Shown piece after piece: positions 48,007-64,000 of a DNA stretch of 64,000 nt (the stretch's first letter is position 1; each line of letters starts with the position of its first letter). The notes below the pieces were generated by a model, which saw nothing but the letters and a program-made list of their open reading frames with translations, did not search any database and was not told where the DNA came from. The position numbers were made by a program, and so were the translations under genes. Source of the stretch: Saccharomonospora xinjiangensis XJ-54. GTDB taxonomy: Bacteria > Actinomycetota > Actinomycetes > Mycobacteriales > Pseudonocardiaceae. Where the stretch lies: assembly GCF_000258175.1 (NCBI RefSeq), contig NZ_JH636049.1, positions 4,506,672-4,570,671 of the forward strand, in the 5' to 3' direction.

Positions 48007-49706
48007 GCGAGACGCTCTCCGCCGCGTGGTCGCGGGTGCGTTCGCTGTTGCCGGGCCGCGCCGATCTCAAGGCGGTGCGGCGCAACCCGCGCCGCGATCT
48101 GCTGGCCGGACTCACCGTGGCGATCGTCGCGTTGCCACTGGCGCTCGGTTTCGGAGTGTCCTCGGGACTCGGCGCGGAGGCGGGGCTCGCCACGGCCGTG
48201 GTCGCGGGCGCTCTCGCCGCCGTGTTCGGCGGGTCGAACGTGCAGGTCTCCGGCCCCACCGGCGCGATGACCGTCGTGCTCGTCCCGATCGCCGCGGCCC
48301 ACGGCCCCGGCGGTGTGCTCACGGTCGGGCTGATCGCCGGGGGCATTCTCGTGGTGCTCGCCTTCGCCCGCGCGGGGCGGGCGATGCGCTACATCCCGGC
48401 CTCCGTCGTGGAGGGTTTCACGCTCGGCATCGCCTGCGTGATCGGGTTGCAGCAGATCCCGAACGCGCTCGGCGTTGACGGGCTCGACGGCGACCACGTC
48501 CTCGGCCTCACCTGGCAGGCCGTGGTGGCCTTCGTGGGGCAGCCGCACTGGACACCGGTCGCGATCGCCGTCGGCGTGGCCGTCGTGATGCTCGCCGGTA
48601 GCCGCTGGCGCCCCGGCGTCCCTTTCTCCATCCTCGCGATCATCGTCGCGACCGTGGTCGTCGAGATCGCGGGCCTCGACGTGACGCCGATCGGTGAACT
48701 GCCTTCCGGGCTGTCTGCGCCGTCACTCGGCTTCCTCGACCTCGCCACGATTCCCGGCCTGCTGCCGTCCGCGTTCGCCGTCGCCGCACTGGCCGCGCTG
48801 GAGTCGCTGCTGTCGGCCTCCGTCGCCGACGGCATGACCGTGGGACAGCGGCACGACCCCGATCGCGAACTGTTCGGCCAGGGCCTTGCCAACCTCGCCG
48901 CGCCGCTCTTCGGCGGAGTTCCCGCGACGGGCGCCATCGCCCGCACGGCCGTGAACGTCAGGGCGGGCGCCGGTTCCCGGCTCGCGGCGCTGACGCACGC
49001 CGCCGTGCTCGCCGTGATCGTCTACGCCGCCGCGCCGCTGGTGTCCGCGATACCGCTCGCCGCGCTCGCGGGGGTGCTGCTGGCCACGGCGGTGCGGATG
49101 GTGGAGGTCGGCAGCGTCACCGCGATGGCGCGGGCGACCCGGCCCGACGCCGTCGTGCTCGCCGTGACCGCCGTCGCCACCGTGGCCCTCGACCTGATCT
49201 ACGCAGTGCTGATCGGGATGCTCCTGGCAGGCGCGCTGGCGTTGCGCTCGATCGCGCGCAACGCCCGCCTGCACAAGATCACGCTCGCCGGGGACCTTCC
49301 CGGAGCCACCACCGACGAGGAACACGCACTGCTGTCGGAGCACATCGTGGCCTACCGCCTCGACGGGCCCTTGTTCTTCGCCGCAGCCCACCGGTTCCTG
49401 CTGGAGCTGGCCGACGTCACCGACATGTCGGCGCTGATCCTGCGAATGTCACGGGTCACCACCATCGACGCCAGCGGCGCGCTCGTGCTCAAGGACGCCG
49501 TCGAGAAACTCGAACACCGGGGCATCGTCGTCTACATCTCCGGCATCCGGGACGGCCACCGCAGGCCGCTGGAAGCACTCGGCCTGCTCACCAGGCTCAC
49601 GGACGCGGGCAGGGTCTTCACCACGACCCCCGAGGCCATCGCCGCGGCCCGCGCGCACCTGCACGGCACCGGAACACTCCCGGCGTCACGACCCGGACCC
49701 GGCTGA
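48003..49706 (+). CDS. SulP-family anion transporter with STAS domain
   Basis: 567-residue membrane transporter of the SulP/SLC26 family for sulfate, bicarbonate or another anion. The core has about 12-14 helices with LLAGLTVAIVALPLALGFGVSSG near the start and the family motif SVADGMTVGQRHDPDRELFGQGLAN in the middle. The C-terminal STAS domain (YRLDGPLFFAAAHRFLLEL, then LRMSRVTTIDASGALVL) regulates transport. ATG overlaps the arsR-type stop by 4 bases. The 3' end overlaps the convergent SARP gene by 21 bases. Confidence 0.93.
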   Translation: MSETLSAAWSRVRSLLPGRADLKAVRRNPRRDLLAGLTVAIVALPLALGFGVSSGLGAEAGLATAVVAGALAAVFGGSNVQVSGPTGAMTVVLVPIAAAHGPGGVLTVGLIAGGILVVLAFARAGRAMRYIPASVVEGFTLGIACVIGLQQIPNALGVDGLDGDHVLGLTWQAVVAFVGQPHWTPVAIAVGVAVVMLAGSRWRPGVPFSILAIIVATVVVEIAGLDVTPIGELPSGLSAPSLGFLDLATIPGLLPSAFAVAALAALESLLSASVADGMTVGQRHDPDRELFGQGLANLAAPLFGGVPATGAIARTAVNVRAGAGSRLAALTHAAVLAVIVYAAAPLVSAIPLAALAGVLLATAVRMVEVGSVTAMARATRPDAVVLAVTAVATVALDLIYAVLIGMLLAGALALRSIARNARLHKITLAGDLPGATTDEEHALLSEHIVAYRLDGPLFFAAAHRFLLELADVTDMSALILRMSRVTTIDASGALVLKDAVEKLEHRGIVVYISGIRDGHRRPLEALGLLTRLTDAGRVFTTTPEAIAAARAHLHGTGTLPASRPGPG

Positions 49707-52337
49707 CCGCCCGCGAACGGTGATCGGCACAAGACACGATCCGGTCAAGGCAGCAGTCTGCCGCGCTGTTCGTGCTGTTCTCGCCCTCGGCCGAGGTGCC
49801 CTTGGCCCGGACCACACCGTGTTGCGCAGGTGGTCGAGCGTCGCGGCGATGGCCTCGTCACCGCCGCGACCCCGGTAGACGTCGATGGCCACCTTGCGAT
49901 ACCCCTCGGCCTCGTCGTGCCGTCGCAGCCTCCGGCACACCTCGGCCAGCGCCATCGCCGCGAACCCCTCTGCGTAGAGGTTGCCGCTCTCGCGGCACAC
50001 GGCGAGAGCCTCGGCGTAGTGGTCGGCGGCCTCCTCGTAGCGGTGCAACTGGGCGTGTCCGAACGCCATGCCGAGCAACAGTTCGCTCTCCGCGGCACTC
50101 TCACCGCTCCTGCGGGCCGCGGCGAGTGCCGTCTCGTACACGGCGATGGCGTCGTGCCAGTGGCCGCGCAGGTCGAAGTACCCGGTGAGCCGGAGCGGAA
50201 GCTGCCACGCGTGCTCGTCGAAGCCGTGCTCCTCCGCCGCCTCGACCAGCCGCCGCAGGTGCGGGTGGGTGTCGTCCCACCAGGACAGCGCCTGCTCGAC
50301 ACCGCCGAACGTCAGCGGCACCACCACGGGGTCGGGAGGGGTGAGGGGCGTGCGCCTCGGTGCGGGATGGATGAGCAGGTCGGTGGCGTCCGCCGTGTGC
50401 AGGTAGCAGTCGAGCAGGCGGCGCATCGCGGCGTGGACGTCCGCACGGTGCTGGGAGCGAACCCGATCGGCGAGGAACGCGGCGAGAAGATTGTGCAGTT
50501 CGTACCGGTACGGGGCGGACTGCCGCAGCAGGTGGGCATCCACGAGCCGCTCCAGCACCCGGTCGGCCTCGGCGACGCCGAGACCGGCGAGCGCGGCTGC
50601 GGCGTTGAGATGCATGCTCGTCGCCGGGTTCAGGGACAGCAGTGCCAGCACCCGCCGTGCTTCCGGGCCGATCCTGGTCATCGACACGGTGAATGCACCC
50701 GCGACGCCGTGCCCGCCCGCGCACAGCTCCCGCAGAGTCCTCCGATGGTCGCGCAGCCGTTCCCGCAGGTGCTCCAGTGTCCACGAAGGACGGTCGCGGA
50801 ACCGGGTCGCCGCGATGCGCAGCGCCAGGGGCAACTGCCCGCACAGTTTCGCCACCTCGGCCAGCAGCGCGGGCCGTTGCCCGCTCAGCCGTGCCGCGCC
50901 CGCGACCCGCGTGAACAGGGTTACGGCGTCGTGCAGCGGAAGGATGTCGAGGGACACCGGGTGCGCCTGCGGCAGCCCGGTCAGACGCGTGCGGCTGGTG
51001 ATCACGGTGCGGCTCACGCCCGCACCGGGCAGCAGGGGGCGGACCTGCTCCTCGCTATGCGCGTCGTCGAGCAGGACGAGCACCGCGCGGTCGGCCAGCA
51101 GCGACCGGAAGAGGTTGGCACGGGCGGTGATGTCGCCGGGAATGTTCCGTTCGGCCACTCCGAGGGCATGCACCATCTGGCCGAGCGCGTCGTCCGGCGA
51201 CAGCGGACCGGTGCCGGGCGTGTGCCCGCGCAGATCGACGAAAAGCTGTCCGTCGGGGAAGGCGGGCGCGAGCCGGTGGGCAGCGTGCACCGCGAGCGTC
51301 GTCTTGCCCACGCCTGCCATGCCGTCCACCGTGGTGATCGCCGGCCCCCGGTCGTCCTCGGGGAAGCAGTCGCCGAGGAGTTCGGCCAGTTCCGCCGCCC
51401 TCCCGGTGAAGGAAGGTAAATCGGCAGGGAGTTCGGCCGGGTGCGGGGAGTGCCGCTCGCCGAGCACCGCGCGTGGCGCCGGGGGTGCCGGAGGTTCGTC
51501 GCACGGCTGGGCTGGTTCGCCACCGGTGCCGCCGGCGCTGGTCACCGCACGTCCTGGCGTGGCAGCCGCGAGGAGAAAGCTGTCACCCTCTCCGCCCGCG
51601 AGCAACTGCTGATGCAGGGAACGCAGCTCGGTGCCCGGCTCGATACCGAGTTCCTCGACGAGCCTCACCCTGGTCTGCCGGAACACGGTCAGCGCCTCGG
51701 TGCGCTGGCCGCATCGGTGCAGCGCGAGCATCAGCATGGCGGCCACCCGCTCCCAGAGCGGGTTCTTCAACAGCAGGGCGCGCAGCTCAGGCAGTACCTC
51801 GGCGTGCCGTCCGAGAGCCAGCCGGGTCATGAGGTACTGCTCGCGCACCTGTTCCCTGCGCGCTTCGAGCTGGGCCGCCTCTGCTTCGAGCTGGGGCCCG
51901 AGAGCCACGGTGTCCAGTGCCCTGCCGTGCCAGGTGGCCAGAGCGCTTTCGAAGTAGCGGCAGGCGACGGCACGGTTGGTGGCCCGCTCTCCCTTCGCCG
52001 CGAGGTCGGTGAAGGTCGCGAGGTCCAGCTCGCCCGGCCGCACGTGCACAAGGTGGCCGCCCCTGCCGGTCCGGAGCCGCGACTCCGGCTCGCCCGGCAC
52101 CCGCAATGCCCTGCGAAGGCGGGTCAGGTAGGTGCGCAGGTTGGAGGGTGCGGAGGTGGGCAGGTCGTGCCAGACCAGTTCAAGAAGCCGCGCCGTCGGC
52201 AGCTCTTTGTTGGCGTGCAACAGCAACGCCACGAGCACCGCCCGCTGCCTCGGCCCTCCCACGGGGCGGTTCTGGCCGTGGAGGCGGACGCCGACCGGGC
52301 CGAGCAACCGGAATTCCACCGTGCGGCTGCCATGCAT
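49686..52337 (-). CDS. SARP/AfsR-type pathway regulator
   Basis: 883-residue transcription activator. Residues 1-95 are an OmpR-type DNA-binding domain (EFRLLGPVGVRL, GPRQRAVLVALLLHANKELP); about 100-245 a bacterial transcription activation domain; about 290-560 an NB-ARC ATPase with Walker A GMAGVGKTTLAVHAAHRL and VLVLLDDAHSEEQ; and the rest TPR-like helices. AfsR-like proteins activate antibiotic and other secondary-metabolite genes. The ATG at 52337 has GGGGAG eight bases upstream. It diverges from the StrR-like regulator at the left end of the terpenoid cluster, so it is a plausible cluster activator. Confidence 0.93.
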   Translation of the reverse strand: MHGSRTVEFRLLGPVGVRLHGQNRPVGGPRQRAVLVALLLHANKELPTARLLELVWHDLPTSAPSNLRTYLTRLRRALRVPGEPESRLRTGRGGHLVHVRPGELDLATFTDLAAKGERATNRAVACRYFESALATWHGRALDTVALGPQLEAEAAQLEARREQVREQYLMTRLALGRHAEVLPELRALLLKNPLWERVAAMLMLALHRCGQRTEALTVFRQTRVRLVEELGIEPGTELRSLHQQLLAGGEGDSFLLAAATPGRAVTSAGGTGGEPAQPCDEPPAPPAPRAVLGERHSPHPAELPADLPSFTGRAAELAELLGDCFPEDDRGPAITTVDGMAGVGKTTLAVHAAHRLAPAFPDGQLFVDLRGHTPGTGPLSPDDALGQMVHALGVAERNIPGDITARANLFRSLLADRAVLVLLDDAHSEEQVRPLLPGAGVSRTVITSRTRLTGLPQAHPVSLDILPLHDAVTLFTRVAGAARLSGQRPALLAEVAKLCGQLPLALRIAATRFRDRPSWTLEHLRERLRDHRRTLRELCAGGHGVAGAFTVSMTRIGPEARRVLALLSLNPATSMHLNAAAALAGLGVAEADRVLERLVDAHLLRQSAPYRYELHNLLAAFLADRVRSQHRADVHAAMRRLLDCYLHTADATDLLIHPAPRRTPLTPPDPVVVPLTFGGVEQALSWWDDTHPHLRRLVEAAEEHGFDEHAWQLPLRLTGYFDLRGHWHDAIAVYETALAAARRSGESAAESELLLGMAFGHAQLHRYEEAADHYAEALAVCRESGNLYAEGFAAMALAEVCRRLRRHDEAEGYRKVAIDVYRGRGGDEAIAATLDHLRNTVWSGPRAPRPRARTARTARQTAALTGSCLVPITVRGRSAGSGS

Positions 52338-52524
52338 CACCGACGCTCCCCTCGAACGGCCTGCCGATACGCGCGGCGTGTGCGTATCTGTGTGCGGTCG
52401 ATCGCAAGACTGTCTGTCTGCACAGTCCTCGCACACCGGCAACCGGGTGATCCTGGACACGTCCTGGCGGGTCTGTGGCAGCGGTGACGAGGTGGCACAC
52501 GAACGGCCCGGGAAGGGGGCGCCG
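52338..52524. promoter_or_regulatory. Shared promoter region of two cluster regulators
   Basis: 187 bases between the divergent SARP and StrR-like genes. GACTGT (52408-52413) and ACAGTC (52422-52427) form a dyad around an 8-base spacer; no clear match to a known SARP heptamer or StrR site was found by eye. Confidence 0.55.
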
Positions 52525-53583
52525 ATGGCGGATGACGTACGGGGAAGGGCGTGTGCGGAGGCCCCTTCGCCGTGGCATGCGCACCAATCGGCCGAGGTTC
52601 CGGAGCAACTCGTACCCGTCAAACTGTTACGGCTCGGTGTCGTTCCCCGTACCGGCGGGGTCGATGACGCACACGTGCTGGCCCTGGCCTCGGCGAGCAC
52701 CAGCCTTCCCCCGATCATCGTCCACCGGCCCACCATGCGGGTCATCGACGGTGTGCATCGCCTGCGCGCCGCGGAACTCGCGGGGAGGACCGCGATCGCA
52801 GTGCGGTTCTTCGACGGTGACCCCGACGACGCCTTCGTGCTCGCCGTCGAGGCGAACAGGGCTCACGGCCTGCCGTTGTCGCTGGCCGACCGCAAGGCCG
52901 CCGCCGCACGGATCATCCGCACACACCCGCTGCGGTCGGATCGGTGGATCGCCCGCGTCAGCGGGCTTGCCGCGACGACGGTGGGTGCGCTTCGCCGGTG
53001 TTCGAGTGTCGGAGACGAGCGGTCGAACACCAGAATCGGGCGCGACGGCAGGAACCGCCCTATCGACAGCTCGGTGGGGCGCAGGCAGGCCGCCGACCTC
53101 ATGCGGGCCGACCCGGCCCGATCCCTGCGTGCCGTGGCGCGGGCTGTGGGAATCGCTCCGTCCACTGTGCTCGATGTGCGCAACCGGATCAGCGCGGGAC
53201 TGGACCCCGTGCCCGCGCGGAAGGACGGCGCGGCGCGAACGAGCCGCACACGAGGGGAGCCATCGCGAAGGCGCACGAGCACCCGCACGGTGGCGGAGCC
53301 CGGCCCCGACGCGATCCTGCACATGCTGCGCCGCGACCCGTCGTTGCGGTTCAGCGAGGCGGGAAAGGCGCTGCTGCGCTGGCTCGACAAGCACACCGTT
53401 GCCGGTGTCGCTTCACCACCCGCCACGGGAATTCCCGCTCACTGCCTCGGAGTCGTCGCCGCACTCGCCCGCCACAACGCGCGCTTCTGGGCCGACTTCG
53501 CCGAGCGCGTCACCGAACTCGAAGAATTCGACGACCGCAGCGAGCTCGGCGAGGCGAAAGGATCAGCGGAGCAGGCCCGGTGA
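52525..53583 (+). CDS. StrR-like ParB-domain transcription regulator
   Basis: 352-residue DNA-binding protein of the StrR/Bbr group, pathway-specific activators found in aminoglycoside, glycopeptide and related clusters. The ParB/sulfiredoxin-like domain carries LPPIIVHRPTMRVIDGVHRL and AVRFFDGDPDDAFVLAVEAN; a helix-turn-helix follows (WIARVSGLAATTVGALRR) and another putative one (AVARAVGIAPSTVLDVRNR). GGAAGGGGG precedes the ATG at 52525. It is the first rightward gene of the cluster, 84 bases before the epimerase, and is its best candidate activator. Confidence 0.9.
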   Translation: MADDVRGRACAEAPSPWHAHQSAEVPEQLVPVKLLRLGVVPRTGGVDDAHVLALASASTSLPPIIVHRPTMRVIDGVHRLRAAELAGRTAIAVRFFDGDPDDAFVLAVEANRAHGLPLSLADRKAAAARIIRTHPLRSDRWIARVSGLAATTVGALRRCSSVGDERSNTRIGRDGRNRPIDSSVGRRQAADLMRADPARSLRAVARAVGIAPSTVLDVRNRISAGLDPVPARKDGAARTSRTRGEPSRRRTSTRTVAEPGPDAILHMLRRDPSLRFSEAGKALLRWLDKHTVAGVASPPATGIPAHCLGVVAALARHNARFWADFAERVTELEEFDDRSELGEAKGSAEQAR

Positions 53584-53667
53584 CCGGCGAAGGCCGTGGC
53601 AGGGCAGGCAGAGCAGGCAGAGCAGGCACTGACGCCGCGCTGGCCGCCGTCTGGATGGGAACGCGAC

Positions 53668-54678
53668 ATGGAACGCAGCAGCGCACGATCCACCGTGCTC
53701 GTCACGGGAGGATGTGGCTTCGTCGGCGGCCACCTGGTCCGGAGCCTGGCCCGGCACGGTCACCGTGTCGTCGTGGTCGATCGCCTTCCCTGGCGTGACG
53801 GCCATGCCGAGTCGGTGTGCCTCGACGTGACCGACCCCGAAGGATGCCGCGAGGTGATGCGCGAGGTCGATCCGAAGGTGGTGTTCCACCTCGCCGCGTC
53901 CTCGACCATCGACTCCGCCTTCGCCGACCCGCACGGCTCCCTCATGTGCAACGTCACGGGCACCATGAACCTGCTCGAAGCCGCACGAAGGCATTGCACG
54001 AACCTGCACCGGTTCGTGCTCGCTTCCACCGACAAGGTCTACGGCGAACTTCATGCGGACGCCTACCTGGAAACGTCACCGCTGGCGGCGCGGGGTGTCT
54101 ACGACGTCGGGAAACTGGCCGCCGACACGGTCACGCGCCTCTACGGCGACGAACTCGGGTTACCGGTGGCGACACTGCGGCTGTGCAACGTTTTCGGGCC
54201 CGGCGACCGGCACACCGGCTCCCGCATCGTGCCTCGCACTCTGAGCAGGCTGTTCGCGCCGGACGGCCCGCTCCCACCGGTGGTCTACGAGGGCTCGATG
54301 GAGCACGGCCGCGACTACGTCTACGTCAGCGACGCCGTGCGGGCTTTGCGCACCGTGGCTTTCCACCCGCGTGCCCTCGGAGAGGTGTTCAACATGGCAC
54401 CGGCCGCCCACCGCACCACGCTCGACCTCGTCGAGGACCTCATCGAGGAGGCGCGGCGCGAGTGCGAGAAGCCCGACCCCGACCGCGCCCGCGCGATCGT
54501 GAAGAACGGATACGTTGTCGTGGCAGCCGACACCGGGGCGGCACTGCCCCGTGCTTTGACGAGACAACACTGCGACGCCACGAAACTCGGTGGCCTGGGA
54601 TTCCGCGTCACCGTGTCGATGAAGGACGGCCTGCGCCGTACCGTACGCGCCTTTTCCGGTTCATCGGGGCGAACCTGA
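53668..54678 (+). CDS. Extended SDR sugar-nucleotide epimerase/dehydratase
   Basis: 336-residue NAD-dependent enzyme of the GalE/RmlB type. NAD motif TGGCGFVG (13-20), CLDVTD, VVFHLAASST, the catalytic STDKVYGE plus YDVGK (Tyr145, Lys149), and RLCNVFGPGDR for substrate binding. It would epimerise, dehydrate or decarboxylate an NDP-sugar. Lying in the cluster with a GT1 glycosyltransferase, it likely prepares the sugar that decorates the product. ATG 53668 is preferred since upstream sequence is not family-like. Which sugar cannot be read. Confidence 0.9.
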   Translation: MERSSARSTVLVTGGCGFVGGHLVRSLARHGHRVVVVDRLPWRDGHAESVCLDVTDPEGCREVMREVDPKVVFHLAASSTIDSAFADPHGSLMCNVTGTMNLLEAARRHCTNLHRFVLASTDKVYGELHADAYLETSPLAARGVYDVGKLAADTVTRLYGDELGLPVATLRLCNVFGPGDRHTGSRIVPRTLSRLFAPDGPLPPVVYEGSMEHGRDYVYVSDAVRALRTVAFHPRALGEVFNMAPAAHRTTLDLVEDLIEEARRECEKPDPDRARAIVKNGYVVVAADTGAALPRALTRQHCDATKLGGLGFRVTVSMKDGLRRTVRAFSGSSGRT

Positions 54679-54888
54679 CGAACACCCCCGATCCCTTGTG
54701 TCGCACGGGAAACGCTGGCTACGGTCGGCGAACAGGTGACCGGAAACAGCAGCGGGAAAAGCTGGAAAAGCTCCGGGAAACGATTCCCGGAAATCGACAC
54801 CGCGAATTGACGGGCAGCACCGCCGCGCACTGCGGTGGACGTGAATCGTCCTGTCCCGATAGACAAGCCGAGCACATTCGGAGGAATG

Positions 54889-55977
54889 GTGGGCGAGCTG
54901 TCGAGCACCGAGCGGTCCTTCGACGGTGCCGATGAAGAGGATCGCCGCAGGACGGACTACGAACGCGAGCTGGCCGGCCTGCTCGCGCAGGGCATGTTCT
55001 GCGGCCCGCGCGCGGGAACGTGCCCGTGGTGCGGACATCCGGGACCGGGATTCCGTGCCCGGCTCGTGGATACCCGCCAGTGCAAGCCAGGCGTGTTCGA
55101 CATGGACGAATGCCGATCCTGCGGCCACGTGTTCCAGAACCCCCGGCTCACGCCTGCCGCGCTCGCCTACTACTGCCGGGACTCCTATGACGGTCTCGGC
55201 CGCGACCACTACGCCTCGGTGGCGGAGTACAGCCGCTCGGCGCAGCGTGCGCGGGTGCGGCTGGTCACGGCTCACCGCCGCCCGACATCGTGGCTGGACG
55301 TGGGCGCCCGGCAGGGACATCTGTGCCGGGAGGCGCGGCGGATGCTGCCAGGGACACGCGTGACGGCTCTCGATCCGAGCCCCGAGGTGCTGCGCGCGAG
55401 GGACCGTGGCTGGACCGACGAGGCCGACCAGCGCCCGCTGACCCGCTTCGCCGAGGACCACCCCGGCGAGTTCGACGTCGTGAGTCTGGTCCACTACGCC
55501 GAACGCACCGCCGACCCGAGAGCGCAGTTCGCGGCCGCGCGGCGCCTGCTGCGGCCCGGCGGCGTGGTCTTGATCGAACAGGTCAACCCGCTCAGCCGGT
55601 ACGCGGATCTGCACGGCCGTTACTGGTACTGCTGGCTGGCCCCGCAGAACCTGCACCTCATGCCCGCGGACAACGTGTGCGGCGCGCTGGGGGAACTCGG
55701 CTTCACCGTGGCGGACGTGCGGCGCGGTGCGGCGAACAAACCCTTCGACAACGTCGCCGCACTGCTCACGGCCCTCAACCACCGGCTTCCTCCGGCCCGC
55801 TCGTGGCCGTGGTCGTCGCGGAGGGCGAGCGTGGCGGGACGGGCGGCCAGAACGGCGGCGATGGTGCTGGCCGCTCCGGCGCTCGCGCTCGCACTGGCCG
55901 TGGACTCGCTGCTCCATCCGCTGATCAGCAGGGGCGGTGGAGGCAACACCTACCGGATCGTGGCCGTGGCGCGCTGA
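54889..55977 (+). CDS. Methyltransferase with N-terminal zinc ribbon
   Basis: About 362-residue protein. The N-terminal part has a zinc-ribbon: CPWCGH and CRSCGHVFQNPRLTP. The middle is a class I SAM methyltransferase (WLDVGARQGHLCREARR as motif I, DVVSLVHYAERTADP, RLLRPGGVVLIEQ). The C-terminus ends in a hydrophobic stretch (AAMVLAAPALALALAVDSLL), perhaps a membrane contact. This Zn-MT layout occurs in sugar C-methyltransferases and other natural-product enzymes. Start uncertain: GTG 54889 has CGGAGG four bases upstream; ATG 54886 and GTG 54835 are alternatives. It lies 49 bases before the cyclase. Confidence 0.85.
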   Translation: MGELSSTERSFDGADEEDRRRTDYERELAGLLAQGMFCGPRAGTCPWCGHPGPGFRARLVDTRQCKPGVFDMDECRSCGHVFQNPRLTPAALAYYCRDSYDGLGRDHYASVAEYSRSAQRARVRLVTAHRRPTSWLDVGARQGHLCREARRMLPGTRVTALDPSPEVLRARDRGWTDEADQRPLTRFAEDHPGEFDVVSLVHYAERTADPRAQFAAARRLLRPGGVVLIEQVNPLSRYADLHGRYWYCWLAPQNLHLMPADNVCGALGELGFTVADVRRGAANKPFDNVAALLTALNHRLPPARSWPWSSRRASVAGRAARTAAMVLAAPALALALAVDSLLHPLISRGGGGNTYRIVAVAR

Positions 55978-56026
55978 GCACCACAACCCGGCAGCAGGAG
56001 CACCGTGACGACGGAAGGCGGATTCG

Positions 56027-57733
56027 ATGAACGTCGAGCAGTTGCAGGCTCGCGCCGAGAAGACGGCCGAGCGCGCCATCACCCACCTCTACGACCGGCA
56101 GCGTGAGGACGGCTCGTGGGTGGATCGGTTGTCCTCCTCGACGATCGCGACGGCGCTGGGGGCGTTGTCGTTGCACCGCGCCGATTCGGTGGCCTACGGG
56201 GCGAGGGTCGAGAACGCGGTGCGGTGGCTGCGTACCCATCAGCGGGAGGACGGGGGCTGGGCCATGGCCGACGCCGAGTGGCCGAGCAGCCCCGGGATGA
56301 CCGCGTTCGGGCTCGCCGCCCTGCACGAGATCGACCCGCACGACTCCCAGCGCGCCATCGAGCGGGCGCACACGTTCATCGACGTCAACGACGGCATGAA
56401 CGTGATCCCCGGACTCACCGGCGAAGCACCGAAGACGTGGCCCGCGGCGCTGCCGACGATCTGGGCTCTCACGGGGTTGCGGGACTTTGAGGCGCAACCC
56501 GACCTTCCCGTCGAGACGATCCTGGTGCCGCGCCGCTGGCGCAACAAGGTGTCGATCGCGCTGCCCGCGATCCTCGGCCTCGGGGTCATGCAGGCGCGCA
56601 CGATGCGCCGTAGCCTGCCGCGGCGCGTCCTCGGCCGGATCGCCGAACCGCTGGCGCTGCGGTGGTTGCGGGGGATCTCCGGCACCAACGGCGGTATCGA
56701 GGAATGCCCCATGATCGCGGGATTCCTCTACCTCGGGCTCCGGCAGGCGGACGTCGCACCCGACCTGCAACGGGCGTCGCTGCGCTACCTGCTTGAGACG
56801 CAGCGGGACGACGGTTCGTGGGCCATCGACCGTGACCTGGAGATCTCGGTCACCGCCTACTCCATCATGGCGCTGTCGGAGTTCTCCGACGTGGCGAAGG
56901 AACCGCTGCTGGAAGGCACCCGCGAGTGGTTGCTGCGCAACCAGTGGAACAAACCGTTCAGCGAGTTCGACATCCCGGCAGGCGGCTGGAGCTGGGCCAA
57001 TCCGTCCGGCTGGCCGGAATCCGAGGACACCGCCGTCGTGCTCGGCGTCCTGGCCGACCTCGGCGTGCCGCGCGAACATCCCTCGGTACAGCTCGGGATC
57101 GACTGGCTGCTGGCGATGCAGAACCGCGACGGTTCGTGGTCGGAATGGGTGCGCAACACGCACATCATGAACGACCGTCCCTGCCCCGGCGTCACCGCGC
57201 ACGTGATCATGGCGCTTCAGCGGTACGGGATGCCCGACTCGCCCGGCAGCGCGATCGCCAGGGCGCTGGCCTACCTGCGCGGCCACCAGCAGAACGACGG
57301 CTCGATCTCGTCGGTCTGGTTCAGGGACAACACCCACGGCACGAGCAGGCTGCTCGAGGCGTTCGTGGATTCCCGCAGGGGCAGCGCTCCCTCCGCCGTC
57401 GCCGCCCGCGAATGGCTGCTCGCCAACCAGGCCGAGGACGGCGGGTGGCCGCTGCGGCACGAGCTGCCGCCGAGGGGCAGCACGGCCGAGGAGACGGCGT
57501 GGGCGTTGTTCGCGCTGGTGAAGGGCGGGGTCGATCCCCGCGATCCCGCTGCGCTGAGGGCGGTGGAATGGCTGGTGGACCACCAGGACGACCAGGGAAC
57601 GTGGCGGCCGAGCAACGTCGGCCTCTACTTCGACGACCTGTGCTACACCGACGACCTCATCGCGCACACTTTCGCGTTGCGCGCCATCGGCCGCTGGTTG
57701 AGAAGGCTGGCTCCGGCGGGGGAGACCCGGTGA
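56027..57733 (+). CDS. Squalene-hopene-cyclase-like protein with ESEDTA motif
   Basis: 568-residue protein of the squalene/oxidosqualene cyclase (class II terpene cyclase) superfamily, somewhat shorter than typical hopene cyclases (about 630-720). Several QW-type repeats: QREDGSW 25-31, QREDGGW 72-78, QRDDGSW 259-265, QNRDGSW, QAEDGGW and QDDQGTW, the alpha/alpha-barrel scaffold. The position of the catalytic DXDDTA reads ESEDTA (331-336; 57017-57034): both outer acids are Glu. So it may protonate an alkene with Glu, or have lost cyclase activity. ATG 56027 follows CGGAAGGCGG. The stop overlaps the first P450 by 4 bases. Substrate: likely a C30 or other polyprene; inferred. Confidence 0.85.
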   Translation: MNVEQLQARAEKTAERAITHLYDRQREDGSWVDRLSSSTIATALGALSLHRADSVAYGARVENAVRWLRTHQREDGGWAMADAEWPSSPGMTAFGLAALHEIDPHDSQRAIERAHTFIDVNDGMNVIPGLTGEAPKTWPAALPTIWALTGLRDFEAQPDLPVETILVPRRWRNKVSIALPAILGLGVMQARTMRRSLPRRVLGRIAEPLALRWLRGISGTNGGIEECPMIAGFLYLGLRQADVAPDLQRASLRYLLETQRDDGSWAIDRDLEISVTAYSIMALSEFSDVAKEPLLEGTREWLLRNQWNKPFSEFDIPAGGWSWANPSGWPESEDTAVVLGVLADLGVPREHPSVQLGIDWLLAMQNRDGSWSEWVRNTHIMNDRPCPGVTAHVIMALQRYGMPDSPGSAIARALAYLRGHQQNDGSISSVWFRDNTHGTSRLLEAFVDSRRGSAPSAVAAREWLLANQAEDGGWPLRHELPPRGSTAEETAWALFALVKGGVDPRDPAALRAVEWLVDHQDDQGTWRPSNVGLYFDDLCYTDDLIAHTFALRAIGRWLRRLAPAGETR

Positions 57734-59124
57734 AGCCAGCGGCGGGCAGGCGGCCCCAGCCGGGCCGAGGCGGCGGCGCGGGCCTCCCTGCCGGCCCCGC
57801 GCTGCCCGCAGTGGTGCAGACCGCGCTGTGGGCAGCGGCGCCCGTGTGGTTCGGCCGGACCTGCCTCCGCCGGTACGGGCCGCTGTTCACCGCCCGCATC
57901 CTCGGTTTCGGACCCGTCGTCTACGCCTGTTCGCCCGAAACGATCCGGCGCATCCTGCTGGACGACGCCGCCGCGTTCGACGCCGCCTCGGCCAACGAGT
58001 CGATCCGGTTCGTGGTCGGTGAGCATTCGCTGCTGATGTCGGGCGGCGCCGAGCACACCCGGCGGCGCAAGCTGCTGATGCGTCCGCTGCACGGGCGCAA
58101 CGTCGCCGACTACGTCGATGTGATGGTGTCCATCGTGGAGCGGGAGATGCGGTCGTGGCGACCGGGTTCCACGGTCAGGCTGCTCGACTGCTTCCAGCGC
58201 GTGACGCTGGAGGTGATGATCCGCGCGGTGTTCGGCATCACCGATTCCGCCCGGCTCGACCGGCTCCGCGTGCTCGTGCCCAAGCTGCTCGCGCTGAACC
58301 CGCTCATCATCCTGCTTCCCGCTCTGCGCAAGCCGTTCGGCGGCATTGGACCGTGGGCGCGATTCCAGCGGCTGCTGCGCGAGGTCGATGACATCATCCA
58401 CGCCGAGATCCGCCAGCGGCGGCAACGGCTGGCCGCCGAACCGGACCTGCGGGGCAGCGACGTGCTCACGCTGCTGCTCACCACCTCCAGTTCCGGGACT
58501 CCGCTGTCCGACACCGAGTTGCGCGACCACATGGTGACGCTGCTGGCCGTGGGGCAGGAGACCACGGCGACGCAGCTCGCGTGGTTCTTCGAAAGGGTGC
58601 TCCGCAGCGGCTCCGCACTGCGGAGGGTGCAGGCCGCGGTCGATGAGGGAGACACCCGCGTCCTCGACGCGGCCATCCACGAGGCGATCCGTGCCAGGCC
58701 GACCACATTGGACGTCGGGCGCATCACCGTCGGGCGATGGGAGGCCGAGGGCCACTCGTTCCCGGCTGGCACGCTGTTCGCGGTGTCGCTCGGCCTGTTG
58801 CACCTTTCGCCGGACCTGCACCCGGTGCCGGAGTCGTACTCGATCGACCGGTTCCATCCTGTCGAGCCGCCCAGCACGCACTTCCTGCCCTTCGGCGGCG
58901 GGAACCACCGATGCCTCGGCGCGTCGCTGGCGATGGTGGAGATGCGCACGGTGATCACCACAATCCTGCGCAACGCCAGGTTGCGGCCTCGCCGCGCCGC
59001 GCCGGAGCGGGTCAAGCCCAAGGGGCCGATGCTCGTACCAGGACACGGCGCGGAGGTGGTCGTTGACGCGAACCACCTTCCCGCCTACGCCGCGAGCGCG
59101 ACCGTGAGCGAGGAGACGACATGA
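57730..59124 (+). CDS. Cytochrome P450 (first of the cluster)
   Basis: 464-residue heme monooxygenase, longer than typical bacterial P450s, with a Pro/Arg-rich N-terminus and PLFTARILGFGPVVYA before the fold. I-helix LLAVGQETTATQLAW has the normal acid-alcohol pair; ExxR is EAIR; the heme Cys is in FLPFGGGNHRCLGAS. The eukaryote-like GGGNHRC form suggests a class acting on large lipophilic substrates. GTG at 57730 overlaps the cyclase stop by 4 bases, so it is coupled to the cyclase and probably oxidises its product. Confidence 0.93.
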   Translation: MKPAAGRRPQPGRGGGAGLPAGPALPAVVQTALWAAAPVWFGRTCLRRYGPLFTARILGFGPVVYACSPETIRRILLDDAAAFDAASANESIRFVVGEHSLLMSGGAEHTRRRKLLMRPLHGRNVADYVDVMVSIVEREMRSWRPGSTVRLLDCFQRVTLEVMIRAVFGITDSARLDRLRVLVPKLLALNPLIILLPALRKPFGGIGPWARFQRLLREVDDIIHAEIRQRRQRLAAEPDLRGSDVLTLLLTTSSSGTPLSDTELRDHMVTLLAVGQETTATQLAWFFERVLRSGSALRRVQAAVDEGDTRVLDAAIHEAIRARPTTLDVGRITVGRWEAEGHSFPAGTLFAVSLGLLHLSPDLHPVPESYSIDRFHPVEPPSTHFLPFGGGNHRCLGASLAMVEMRTVITTILRNARLRPRRAAPERVKPKGPMLVPGHGAEVVVDANHLPAYAASATVSEETT

Positions 59125-60380
59125 CCGCCACCGTCCGCGCCTTCCCGTTCCCCCGCGCCAGGCGTCTCGACCTCGAACCCGAGTACCGGGCGCTACGGGA
59201 ACGGGAACCGGTGAGCAGGGTCGCCTTCCCCTACGGCGAGCAGGCGTGGCTCGTCACCCGCTACGCCGACGTGCGCACCGTGCTCACCGATCCCCGCTTC
59301 TCCCGCGCCGTGTCCCTTGAGCGTGACGTTCCGAGGGTGACCGAGGAGAACTTCAGCGGCGGGCTCGTGGCCATGGACCCGCCGGAGCACACCCGCGTGC
59401 GTTCGGTGTGCAGGCACGCGTTCACCGCCCGCACCGTGGCCAGGCTGCGGCAGCGGGCCACCACGATCGCCACCGACCTGGTCGAGACGGCGCGGCGTGA
59501 GGGCGGGTTCGACGCGGTGGAGGACTTCGCGCTGCCGTTCACCCTGAAGATGATCTGCGAACTGCTCGGTGTCCCTTACGAGGACCGCGACCACTTCCGC
59601 TACTGGGCCGAAGCGGGACTGGCCACCACCTCGCTCACCGAGGACGAACGGTGGCGCGCCACCGGCAACATGTGGGACTACGTCGCGAACCTGGTGGCCG
59701 AGCGGCGCGCGCACCCGCGCGACGACCTGATCTCGGCGATGCTGGCCGTGCAGTCCGAGACGGGCGCCGTCAGCGACGACGAACTCGTGATCGTGGCCAT
59801 GACCATCCTCGTCGCCGGCTACGAGACCACCTCAACGCAGTTGCCCAACTTCCTGTACGTGCTGCTGGAGGACCGCGCCCGCTTCGAGACGCTGGTCGCC
59901 GACCCCGGGCTGATCCCCGGCGCGGTGGAGGAGCTGATGCGGTACGTGCCGCTGGAGGCCAACGGCACCTCACCCCGCTACGCGCTGGAGGACGTGACGC
60001 TGAGCGGCGTGCGCATCGAGGCGGGTGAGCCGGTGGTACCGGCGTCGGTGATCGCCAACCGGGACCCCGAGGTCTTCACCGATCCCGATCGGCTCGACTT
60101 CACCCGCAGCCCCAACCCGCACCTCGGATTCGGGCTGGGGGCGCACTTCTGCCTCGGAGCCCCGCTCGCGCGGCTGGAACTTCAGGTCGCCCTCGACGTC
60201 GTCACCACGGCGGTGCCGGACCTGCGGCTACCGGAGGACAACGACGGCATCGAGTGGAAGGAGGGGATGCTCGTGCGCGGCCCCTCCCGGCTCCCGCTTG
60301 CCGTGGATTCCGTGGACCCCGTGGACCCCACAGCGCCCGCACCGACCGCGTCACCTCGTCCCCAAAGGAGCAGGCCATGA
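59121..60380 (+). CDS. Cytochrome P450 (second of the cluster)
   Basis: 419-residue P450 of standard bacterial size. I-helix [15 protein letters not shown] with the acid-alcohol pair, ExxR as EELMR, and heme motif [19 protein letters not shown]-terminal 35 residues form an Asp/Val/Pro-rich tail ([13 protein letters not shown]). It resembles CYP105/107-type hydroxylases. The ATG overlaps the previous P450 stop by 4 bases and its own stop overlaps the next by 4, all within the single cluster transcript. Site of oxidation unknown. Confidence 0.94.
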
Positions 60381-61636
60381 CCGCACCCGAACAACCGCAG
60401 GCAGGCGTCACCTCCCGCGAACCGCCTCCTGTCGAACGCTTCCGCCCCGCCGACCTCGACGAGCGCGACTGGAGCCGGTTGAGGGCGACCTGCCCGGTGT
60501 CGCGTGTGGACACCCCGGAGGGCGGCGAGGTGTGGCTGGTGAGCCGCTACGCCGACATCCGCGCCGTCCTGGCGAGCAGGCAGTTCAGCGTCTCACCCAT
60601 CGACCCCGACAGGGGAACAGGCACGGCGGAGGCCAACGAGTCGATCTTCCAGGATCCACCGGAGCACACCCGCCTCCGCGGTCTGGTCGCGGGACCCTTC
60701 GCGGTGGGCTACGTCGGCCGGTACCAGGACACGATCCGCGCGGGGGCCGACCTGCTCCTCGACCGGATTCGCGAGGTGGACGGGCCGGTTGACGTGATGG
60801 AGGACTTCTCGAAGCCGCTGACGATGAACGTCATCTCCGAGGTCGTCGGCGTCCCGGAACCCGATCGCGCGCTCTTCCAGCGCCTGTCCGACCAGCTTCT
60901 CGTCCCGCTGTCCGAGGCGCAGGGAGTGGTCGCCCTTGAGGGCTGGCGGCAGCTCAACGACTACGTGCGCGACCTGATCGCCCAGCGCCGCCGCGACCCG
61001 CAAGGCCGGGATCGCCCCGACCTGCTCGCGCACATGATCCGCGCGCAGGAGGAGGACGGCATCGTCGATGACGTCGAGCTGGCCACCATGGTGCTCGGCC
61101 TTCCCGTCGCAGGGTATGTCAGCACAGCCAACGCGATCGCCGTCGCCATGCGGTACCTGCTGGAGTTCGGGTGGCTGGCCCGGCTGCGCGGCGAGCAGGA
61201 GGCCGGGCTGCGCAAGCAGTTCGTCGAGGAGGTCCTGCGCATCCAGTCCGGTGACAACGGCGAGTCCATGCCCCGGTTCGCCGCCGAGAACGTGCGGATC
61301 GGGGGCGTGCTGATCAGCAAGGGGGACACCGTGGTGGCGCCGCTGGTGGCGGCCAACCGCGACGCCGACATCTTCTCCGACCCCGAGGTGTTCGACCCGC
61401 ACCGGCCGAACCTCGGCCGCCACGTCGCCTTCGGGTTCGGCATCCACCGCTGCCTCGGCGCGAACCTCGCGCGGCTGGAGCTGCGGATAGCGGTGGACGC
61501 ACTCGTCGAGTGCGGAATGGACTTCGTGATGCTCGAGGCATGGAAAGCGGTCCCCTGGAAGGTCAACATGCTGGGCGACCGGTTCCCCGAACGGATGCCG
61601 GTGCGGGCGCTGCCCGCCGCGAACGGAGGCGAGTGA
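60377..61636 (+). CDS. Cytochrome P450 without the I-helix acid (third)
   Basis: 419-residue P450. The heme motif is intact ([18 protein letters not shown]) and ExxR is EEVLR, but the I-helix reads [15 protein letters not shown] (245-249: AGYVS), so Val stands where Glu or Asp normally sits. That acid takes part in proton delivery in most P450s. The enzyme may rely on substrate-assisted proton relay, on peroxide, or on an unusual reaction. AAAGGAG precedes the ATG at 60377; it overlaps the previous gene by 4 bases and the glycosyltransferase by 1. Confidence 0.93.
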
Positions 61637-62796
61637 TGGGATGCCACATCCTCTTCGCGTCGATTCCCGCATGGGGCCACCTCTACCCGGTGCTTCCGGG
61701 GCTGGCCGAACTCGTCCGCAGGGGACACCGCGTGAGCTGCCTCGCCTCGGGTGGTTTCGCCGGTGAGGTGGGCAAGGTTCTCGACGTCGTGCCGTACGAC
61801 TCGCCGATGGACTCGACCGAGGTGGACCTCGCCGACATGGGCAGCGTGCTGCCGATGATGCTCGACGAGACCCGCGCCGCCTACAGCGTGCTCGCCGACG
61901 TCGTGCGTGCCGACCCTCCCGAGGTGATCGTGTCCGACGTGCTGTCGAACGCGGGCTGGCTGCTGGGCAGGGCTTTCGACCTTCCCGTCGTCCGCACCTG
62001 GCCGGTGTTCGCGTCGAACTCCGAGTTCTCCCTGCACGAGGACTACACCTCCCGCACCGATACCGAGGAGTCGATGACGGCGTTCTTCCGTGCGGTCGCG
62101 GCGTTCCTCGACGAGGTGGGGCTCGACACGGTGTCGCCGGAGCAGTTCTTCGACAACGAGGCCGAGCACAACATCGCGTTGTTCCCTCGCGCGTTGCAGC
62201 CGCGCGGGGAGACGTTCGACGCGCGCTTCACCTTCATCAGCCCGTGCATCAGGCCAGCCGAGGGCTCGCCGGAGGTGCCGTGGCTGGCCCGCTCGCAACC
62301 ACTGGCCGTGGTGTCGCTGGGCACGGTGTTCAACGAGAAGATCGACTTCTTCCGCACCTGCCTCGACGGCATCGACCGGCTCGGCTGGTATGCCGCCGCC
62401 GCGCTGGGCAAGCGGGTCAACCCGGCCGCGATCGGTCCTGTCTCGCCGAGGGTGTTGCTCACACCGACCCTGCCGATGATCGACGCGTTGCGCCATGCCT
62501 CCGTCGCGGTCACTCACGGGGGCCTGACCAGCACGCTCGAAGCACTCGCCGAGGGCGTTCCCGTGCTGATCTCACCGCAGATCGGGGAGCAGCGCGGCGT
62601 CGCCGACCGTGTGGAGGCGCTCGGGCTCGGCCAGCTCCTCCCCGATCCGTTCACCGCGGAGGAGCTGGCCGAGCTGATCAAGCAGGTGTCCCAGGACAGC
62701 GCGATGGCCGAACGGCTCGACCGGTTCCGCGCCACGGTGCGGGACGCCGACGGACCCGCCCAGTTCGCCGACGCCGTCGAAGCCGTGCCGCGCTGA
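61636..62796 (+). CDS. GT1 glycosyltransferase, macrolide/terpenoid type
   Basis: 386-residue GT-B glycosyltransferase that moves a sugar from an NDP donor to a small acceptor. N-terminal acceptor domain begins ILFASIPAWGHLYPVLPGLAEL (catalytic His13 region); C-terminal donor domain has LPMIDALRHASVAVTHGGLTSTLEAL and PQIGEQRGVADRVEALGLG. Macrolide-type GT1. ATG overlaps the third P450 stop by 1 base (TGATG). With the epimerase at 53668 it indicates a glycosylated end product or self-resistance by glycosylation. Confidence 0.92.
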   Translation: MGCHILFASIPAWGHLYPVLPGLAELVRRGHRVSCLASGGFAGEVGKVLDVVPYDSPMDSTEVDLADMGSVLPMMLDETRAAYSVLADVVRADPPEVIVSDVLSNAGWLLGRAFDLPVVRTWPVFASNSEFSLHEDYTSRTDTEESMTAFFRAVAAFLDEVGLDTVSPEQFFDNEAEHNIALFPRALQPRGETFDARFTFISPCIRPAEGSPEVPWLARSQPLAVVSLGTVFNEKIDFFRTCLDGIDRLGWYAAAALGKRVNPAAIGPVSPRVLLTPTLPMIDALRHASVAVTHGGLTSTLEALAEGVPVLISPQIGEQRGVADRVEALGLGQLLPDPFTAEELAELIKQVSQDSAMAERLDRFRATVRDADGPAQFADAVEAVPR

Positions 62797-62857
62797 GCAG
62801 GACCGTACCCGACCAAGCCGAAGAGTGTCAGGAACGAGTGCCAGGAAAGAGACCGAC

Positions 62858-64000
62858 ATGCAGGAGCACCTCGCCGGCTCGCTCGCCGACTACCCCTTCG
62901 TCCGCGATTCGATCATCGACCCCTCACCCGAGCTGGCCAGGCTGCGGGACTCGGCCCCGATCCACAAGGTCACGACGAGCGGGGGAGGGCAGGCGTGGCT
63001 GGTCACCCGCTACGCCGACGTCCGCGCCGTGCTCGGGCACGCGGCGTTCGGAACGCAGTACCCGGGAACCATCCCCACCGCCGACGAGAACAACCTCGCC
63101 GCCGGGTTCATGTTCCTCAAGGACCCGCCGGAACACACCCGGTTGCGGCGTAGCGTCAGCAGGGCGTTCACCGCCCGGCGCGTCACCGTGCTGCGCGAAC
63201 GCGCGCAGGCGGTCGCCGACGGGCTGGTGGCCGACCTGCTCGCCGAAGGTCCTGTCGCGGACCTCCAGGAAGGCTTCGCCTACCCACTGCCGATCACCGT
63301 GATCTCGGAGTTGCTCGGCATCCCCGAGCAGGACAGAGGCCGGTTCCGGGGCTGGGCCGACATCGTCCTGCGGTCGGTGGAGGGTGATCCCGCCGAGACC
63401 GCCACGGCGTTCACCGACCTGCAACGGTTCGTCCTCGATCTCGTGGCGGCCAAACCCGACGGTGACGACCTGCTCAGCGACCTCGCCCGCCAGTCGGATC
63501 AGCCGGACGGGCTCAGCAGGCTGGAGATCGCGTCGATGGCGATGGGGCTTTTGATGGCCGGGTACGTCACGACGGCGTCGGCGATCTCCCACGGCATGCT
63601 GCGCCTGTTCGACCACCCGGCTGTGCTCGACGGGCTGAGGACCGGTGAGGTCCCAGTCACCGGTGTGGTCGAGGAGCTGCTGCGGTTGCAGGACGAGGAG
63701 GTCGGCATCCAGCGCATCGCGCAGGCCGACATCGACCTCTGCGGGGTGCGGATCAGCAAGGGAGACGTCGTGATCGCCTCGCGGGTCGGGGCCAACCGCG
63801 ACCCCGCCGAGTTCGACGCCCCCGAGACGTTGCGCGTCGGCGGGAGACGCAGCCCGCACCTGGCGTTCGGCCACGGCATCCACCACTGCCTCGGCGCGGC
63901 ACTGGCCCGCATGGAGCTGGCCGTCGCGCTCACCACGCTCAACACCGGAATCCCAGGACTGCGGCAGGCGGACCCGCCGCACGAGGTGTTGTGGAGGGCC
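62858..64000 (+). CDS. Cytochrome P450 (fourth; 3' end outside window)
   Basis: Open frame of 381 codons from the ATG at 62858 (GGAAAG upstream) to the window edge; about 20-30 residues are missing. It shows [22 protein letters not shown] as ExxR and the heme motif AFGHGIHHCLGAALARME. The I-helix reads LLMAGYVTTASAISH (234-238: AGYVT), again with Val for the usual acid, like the third P450. The two are therefore probably related paralogues within the cluster. It follows the glycosyltransferase by 61 bases. The cluster continues beyond the window. Confidence 0.92.
   Translation, partial: MQEHLAGSLADYPFVRDSIIDPSPELARLRDSAPIHKVTTSGGGQAWLVTRYADVRAVLGHAAFGTQYPGTIPTADENNLAAGFMFLKDPPEHTRLRRSVSRAFTARRVTVLRERAQAVADGLVADLLAEGPVADLQEGFAYPLPITVISELLGIPEQDRGRFRGWADIVLRSVEGDPAETATAFTDLQRFVLDLVAAKPDGDDLLSDLARQSDQPDGLSRLEIASMAMGLLMAGYVTTASAISHGMLRLFDHPAVLDGLRTGEVPVTGVVEELLRLQDEEVGIQRIAQADIDLCGVRISKGDVVIASRVGANRDPAEFDAPETLRVGGRRSPHLAFGHGIHHCLGAALARMELAVALTTLNTGIPGLRQADPPHEVLWRA

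Follow-up and report, generated by a model that had tools for sequence, protein, structure and literature searches.

A probable meroterpenoid glycoside gene cluster in Saccharomonospora xinjiangensis with a class II terpene cyclase of altered acid motif

The stretch of DNA analysed here (the window; 64,000 nucleotides, C2:4506672-4570671 of the 4.78-Mb genome of Saccharomonospora xinjiangensis XJ-54) contains the first ten genes of a biosynthetic cluster that encodes a squalene-hopene cyclase (SHC)-like class II terpene cyclase, a glycosyltransferase (GT) and a series of cytochromes P450. We consider it probable that the complete cluster was acquired horizontally and makes a glycosylated, heavily oxidised meroterpenoid by prenylation, epoxidation and cyclisation. 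An original prediction, made from the letters of the window, had proposed a heavily oxidised, glycosylated terpenoid, had counted four P450s and had suggested a comparison with triterpenoid clusters. The general description fits the gene content, but the full cluster has six P450s, and the triterpenoid comparison did not hold up. Because genes for a UbiA-type prenyltransferase, an FAD monooxygenase (FMO) and a polyprenyl diphosphate synthase lie past base 64000, and none of the Pfam matches of the cluster's 20 genes is to the squalene synthase family, the product is likely to be an oxidised, methylated and glycosylated C20 or C25 meroterpenoid rather than a triterpenoid.

The original prediction had advised looking beyond base 64000. 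Indeed, the window cuts the cluster, which runs on for ten further genes and approximately 11.5 kb past the window end (Table 1). Its boundaries were defined against three of 11 congeners, namely those in which two genes of the right flank adjoin each other. In these, flank homology stops on the left at 49709, 49683 and 49683 and resumes on the right at 75574, 75574 and 75564, and other DNA (approximately 6.9, 4.6 and 4.5 kb) occupies the space between the flanks. Since the stop codons of the SARP gene (49686) and of P450 e (75466) sit at the two homology edges, we place the insert between about 49.69 and 75.57 kb. It thus measures approximately 25.9 kb and holds 10 genes in the window (counting P450 d) and 10 beyond it. 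At the E-values applied, no match to the cyclase was found in any of the 11 congeners (82-100% complete), and this absence, taken with the intact flanks, suggests that the cluster of some 26 kb was acquired horizontally. A plasmid search with the cyclase returned 55 records, all below 60% identity, the best-covered places being at about 25%. The insertion site in a congener (L106:11317-15400) carries a partial GntP permease, an MvdD-type ATP-grasp protein and a PCMT-type methyltransferase, and is possibly a locus for a ribosomally synthesised, ATP-grasp-modified peptide (RiPP).

The block is not a chance assembly of genes, because it recurs in nine other genomes. One scan of the genome collection identified eight loci. 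When 390 genomes of the family were surveyed, 70 loci were retrieved, counting that of the window, and these represent a broad cyclase family at E <= 1e-40. We distinguish ten close clusters, comprising that of the window and those of two Kibdelosporangium, a record titled Rhodococcus rhodnii, Actinokineospora fastidiosa, Amycolatopsis coloradensis, Kutzneria sp., Nonomuraea terrae, and the genomes of L092/L093 and L094 (genera as in the record titles). The genes for the sugar short-chain dehydrogenase/reductase (SDR), the cyclase, P450s a-d, the GT, the PhyH-type dioxygenase, UbiA and the FMO are each present in all ten. The polyprenyl synthase was found in nine (the L094 stretch ends before it) and the NPPF methyltransferase in eight (the Nonomuraea stretch ends before it, and it was not found in L092/L093). 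The radical S-adenosylmethionine (SAM) gene is present in seven; L094 and Nonomuraea are out of range, the latter having such a gene on a small contig. The zinc-ribbon methyltransferase is found in six, as is the acyl-CoA-dehydrogenase/hydrolase pair, which was not found in two clusters and lies outside the coverage of two more. Gene order within the fetched stretch agrees with that of the window in seven of the nine relatives. The other two are rearranged: Nonomuraea has the polyprenyl synthase and a relative of P450 e upstream, and L092/L093 has the GT, SDR and polyprenyl synthase at the opposite end. The record titled Rhodococcus rhodnii NRRL B-16535 (L008, JOAA01000033.1) belongs to a 12.4-Mb genome which falls into group g263 with the two Kibdelosporangium, and because of this grouping its title is probably wrong.

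The cyclase carries both SQHop_cyclase domains (143.8 and 95.0 bits) and its SHC-family matches lie above the Pfam cut-offs and below those of NCBIfam. An AlphaFold2 model (mean pLDDT 76.7; 89 over residues 331-340 and 95 over 341-350, poor at 123-177) has an SHC fold; the best Foldseek match was the Alicyclobacillus acidocaldarius SHC (1sqc; query TM-score 0.71, E 2.6e-20), followed by the drimenyl diphosphate synthase SsDMS (7xq4, 7xr7; 0.67), with root-mean-square deviations of 5-7 A. Although the acid motifs of the A. acidocaldarius enzyme and the cyclase align, the two proteins differ in length (631 against 568 residues), share only about 23% identity and differ in the motif itself: on alignment with 1gsz, E331-S-E333-D334 falls on D-V-D-D, and the canonical DXDD with its central aspartate is absent. 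That aspartate is almost 100% conserved across the bacterial type II families surveyed in PMC9814783. In our motif survey of 48 extracted cyclases, E-[ST]-E-D replaces DXDD in all 19 that share at least 52.8% identity, the query included (hereafter the ExED clade), and D/E-x-D-D occurs in 11, among them the genome's own SHC. The cyclase is homologous to class II enzymes, and its glutamate may do the work of the aspartate. PDB titles record D303E variants of SsDMS crystallised with substrate, D303 being, we assume, the central acid; the substrate-bound crystals suggest that the exchange impairs that enzyme. The SsDMS glutamate is engineered, whereas that of the present cyclase is natural and fixed. 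A further 18 of the 48 cyclases have L-E-[ST], with no central acid (L056, L058-L064, L082-L091), and UbiA was found in the same stretch in 8/8 of the loci L056 and L058-L064. Loci L082-L091 contributed to the motif survey and to the UbiA alignment, and stand outside the neighbourhood counts.

The association with UbiA extends well beyond the close clusters. The 19 ExED loci include L015, from a metagenome-assembled genome, which lies outside the ten close clusters (65% cyclase identity, different neighbourhood). Within the fetched regions of these 19, P450 a and the polyprenyl synthase each accompany the cyclase in 18, UbiA in 17 and the FMO in 16. Among 18 more distant cyclase regions, UbiA was found in 16 and the polyprenyl synthase in 17. 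Gene distances vary in these counts, and contig ends cut some of the stretches. Cyclase and UbiA therefore travel together. The UbiA aspartate motifs GDxxDRxLD and DxxxD are kept in all 38 aligned copies, the first with Gly where the canonical motif has Asn, and among solved structures the closest match is to digeranylgeranylglyceryl phosphate synthase, a prenyltransferase. Additionally, a second type of cluster, related to the first, is represented by L097-L101, with cyclase, P450 a, polyprenyl synthase, UbiA, FMO and radical-SAM genes at 45-70% identity; the genome of L101 carries it alongside a close cluster.

Among the tailoring enzymes, the I-helix acid is missing from P450 c (AGYVST) and P450 d (AGYVTT) in all ten close clusters, and from P450 f (GGQLTT) in each of the six clusters (the window's among them) with an orthologue at 56% identity or above. 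In the window copies of all three, the EXXR and haem-Cys motifs, which are standard P450 signatures, are intact. The radical-SAM protein belongs to the KedN5 family (NF033712, 1031.3 bits against a cut-off of 700). The GT, scored on the longer open reading frame (ORF) 61510-62796, belongs to the MGT family (TIGR01426, 265.5 bits against 260); since it is closest to OleI, its role could lie in tailoring or in self-protection. For the polyprenyl synthase, the geranylgeranyl diphosphate (GGPP) model gave 200.1 bits and the geranylfarnesyl diphosphate (GFPP) model 167.3, both below cut-off, so that the scores leave the chain length undecided.

On the basis of what the analysis shows (the genes present, the edges of the insert, the conserved genes and motifs, and the modelled fold of the cyclase), we infer the chemical steps below, their order and the role of the regulators. 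The polyprenyl synthase would make GGPP, or possibly the C25 GFPP, and UbiA would move this chain onto a small acceptor from primary metabolism. The FMO would then epoxidise the terminal olefin, and the soluble SHC-like cyclase would open the epoxide via Glu333 of its ExED motif and close the rings. Oxidation of the skeleton by the six P450s and the PhyH-type dioxygenase might follow, with P450 a probably acting early, given that it is found together with the cyclase throughout the clade. The cobalamin radical-SAM, zinc-ribbon and NPPF enzymes would methylate the product, and the OleI-like GT would add a sugar, perhaps supplied by the dehydratase with the TDK motif. The SARP and ParB/StrR-like proteins may switch the cluster on.

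Several observations weigh against this scheme. No gene for acceptor biosynthesis was recognised in the insert. The FMO finds its solved-structure matches among ring hydroxylases (tropone 2-monooxygenase, for example), and none of the 56 is named as a terpene epoxidase. An FMO was detected in just one (L063, 29% identity) of the 18 more distant cyclase regions, where epoxidases other than FMO were not looked for. Even within the ExED clade, L095 and L096 have P450 a and the polyprenyl synthase and show neither UbiA nor FMO in 18-20 kb, and L102 lacks P450 a and FMO in its 20 kb; among the close clusters, the radical-SAM gene was not found in 30 kb of L092/L093 (G642). Since the FMO occurs in 16 of the 19 ExED loci but in 1 of the 18 distant regions, epoxidation by this FMO family would be a feature of the ExED clade and not of the wider UbiA-linked group. 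A gene for GcpE, of the methylerythritol phosphate pathway, lies near the L096 cyclase.

Two of these points, the missing acceptor gene and the scarcity of FMOs in the distant regions, would also suit a glycosylated diterpenoid with no non-terpene partner. In that case the cyclase would convert GGPP to a bicyclic diphosphate and the UbiA protein would serve as a second cyclase, as a UbiA-type terpene synthase does in the biosynthesis of platencin. Precedents exist: actinomycete diterpene synthases of the UbiA type are described in PMC10301674, and PMC9814783 gives 14% as the share of actinobacterial ent-copalyl diphosphate (CPP) synthase clusters that encode a likely UbiA cyclase. We nevertheless regard this alternative as rather unlikely, given that the cyclase is SHC-like and not CPP-synthase-like, that an FMO is found with it in most ExED loci and that the best solved match of UbiA is a prenyltransferase. 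A triterpenoid or modified hopanoid, with the cyclase acting on squalene or oxidosqualene, would agree with the SHC-family matches, which exceed the Pfam cut-offs but not those of NCBIfam, and with a strong SHC match elsewhere in the genome. However, the cyclase falls about 60 residues short of SHC in length and has no DXDD, and the insert supplies a polyprenyl synthase and UbiA in place of any recognised squalene-forming enzyme; we therefore hold this explanation to be very improbable.

The meroterpenoid reading finds its closest parallel in phenalinolactone, since genes for a polyprenyl synthase, UbiA, an FMO and a class II cyclase, the set that defines clusters of that kind, occur together here. 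Phenalinolactones, from Streptomyces sp. Tu6071, are tricyclic terpene glycosides whose oxygenase genes include plaO2, O3 and O5 (PMC10301674). Their formation by "sequential prenylation, epoxidation, and cyclization" is the wording of a title cited in PMC13307353, and a squalene-monooxygenase homologue of that cluster is believed to epoxidise GGPP (PMC5618424). Compared by description, the insert has the parts of such a route. It differs from the phenalinolactone cluster in its six P450s, OleI-like GT and KedN5-family radical-SAM enzyme. The phenalinolactone cluster also has pyrrole-acid and amicetose genes, none of which was recognised in the insert. Atolypenes are cyclic terpenoids obtained by refactoring an Amycolatopsis tolypomycina cluster (PMC10301674, PMC8532670). 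Compared likewise by description, the atolypene cluster has UbiA, FMO and cyclase genes, and its products are tricyclic sesterterpenes that are not known to carry a sugar. The zig cluster of Micromonospora zingiberis, which makes the bacterial meroditerpenoid zigralone, a quinolone diterpenoid, resembles the insert in having a polyprenyl synthase, a UbiA-like prenyltransferase and five P450s, but its cyclase is a transmembrane Pyr4-like protein rather than an SHC-like one, and it has an enzyme dependent on thiamine diphosphate (PMC13307353). The shared core genes leave some room for a product already described under the phenalinolactone, atolypene or tiancilactone kind, with the strain alone being new. 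This seems to us slightly less probable still than the diterpenoid alternative: the six P450s, the KedN5-type methyltransferase and the OleI-like GT differ from the tailoring sets of those clusters, and no open-licence paper that we found describes or joins this combination of genes.

The present cluster would add to bacterial meroterpenoid biosynthesis a family of clusters that is sharply bounded, recurs and seems to be uncharacterised. It also offers a natural test of the central acid that class II cyclases require, with aspartate in SHC and in some UbiA-linked relatives, glutamate in the ExED clade and neither in the LE[ST] group; most of these related cyclases are UbiA-linked. The boundaries derived from congeners ease cloning, and the comparison of ten clusters hints at which genes serve the scaffold and which merely decorate it. 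More tentatively, and with a little less than even confidence, we propose that the cyclase clade has fixed Glu in place of the central Asp and is tuned to protonate the epoxide of a UbiA-prenylated substrate. On this proposal it would be the anchor of a meroterpenoid glycoside family not yet described, which horizontal transfer would have carried into at least six genera of actinobacteria. The two or three P450s dedicated to that family, from which the I-helix acid has been lost, may carry out a reaction other than the usual hydroxylation.

Table 1. Genes of the insert (window numbering; the genes from PhyH onwards lie beyond the window)
Gene	Position	Strand	Features
SARP-type regulator	49686-52745	-	Pfam BTAD, NB-ARC, TPR; left edge of insert
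ParB/StrR-like regulator ORF	52525-53583	+	weak helix-turn-helix Pfam matches
NDP-sugar SDR (4,6-dehydratase/epimerase-like)	53596-54678	+	TDK motif; Pfam Epimerase
Zinc-ribbon class I SAM methyltransferase	54835-55977	+	Pfam Methyltransf_23; CxxC pairs
SHC-like class II terpene cyclase	56027-57733	+	Pfam SQHop_cyclase N + C
Cytochrome P450 a	57730-59124	+	
Cytochrome P450 b	59121-60380	+	canonical I-helix AGYETT
Cytochrome P450 c	60377-61636	+	I-helix AGYVST, acid lost
GT1 glycosyltransferase, OleI/MGT-like	61636-62796	+	TIGR01426; best solved match 2iya
Cytochrome P450 d	62825-64045	+	I-helix AGYVTT, acid lost; last 45 bases past window
PhyH dioxygenase	63991-64932		start probably internal
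UbiA prenyltransferase	64977-65969	-	
FAD monooxygenase (FMO)	65947-67182		
NPPF methyltransferase	67322-68071		
Acyl-CoA-dehydrogenase-like protein	68103-69152		
Hydrolase	69152-69964		
Cytochrome P450 f	69970-71133		I-helix GGQLTT
KedN5-family cobalamin radical-SAM C-methyltransferase	71194-73125		NF033712
Polyprenyl diphosphate synthase	73172-74218		
Cytochrome P450 e	74285-75466		

The genes that the original prediction had named in the window, a SARP (-) and StrR-like (+) pair, an epimerase, a methyltransferase, the cyclase, P450s and a GT, are all present, and its overlaps of 4, 4, 4 and 1 bases from cyclase to GT are exact at the junctions (GTGA, ATGA, ATGA and a single base). Co-translation, which it had drawn from them, is plausible on these overlaps. 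What the relatives keep, however, is gene order and direction rather than overlap: their tblastn spans, which are extents of matches and not mapped gene ends, mostly show short gaps at these junctions. The overlaps thus look peculiar to the S. xinjiangensis copy and, being generally absent in relatives, were dropped as evidence by themselves. An ORF at 57643-59076 on the minus strand was rejected as a gene; it is antisense to P450 a and matches no family.

Full-length matches of the SARP in relatives begin near residue 143, at about 52.3 kb, and its true start is probably near there. It has matches of 56-63% in three of the nine relatives' clusters, the L094 copy being partial. The adjacent ORF owes its ParB/StrR-like label to our own reading of its sequence; it has no ParB match in Pfam and no NCBIfam match at all. 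It is kept at 48-66% in eight of the nine relatives' clusters, and lies directly upstream of the sugar SDR in seven of the eight clusters that have it. The best solved-structure matches of the SDR are dTDP-glucose 4,6-dehydratases. Its TDK motif is present in eight of ten aligned rows, the window's included, with one close row gapped and the distant L065 different (the L093 SDR was left out of this alignment). Elsewhere in the same genome, a strong SHC match (455 bits) lies at G000:C2:4220618-4221559 and a weak SHC-like ORF (36 bits) at G000:C2:1356720-1356968.

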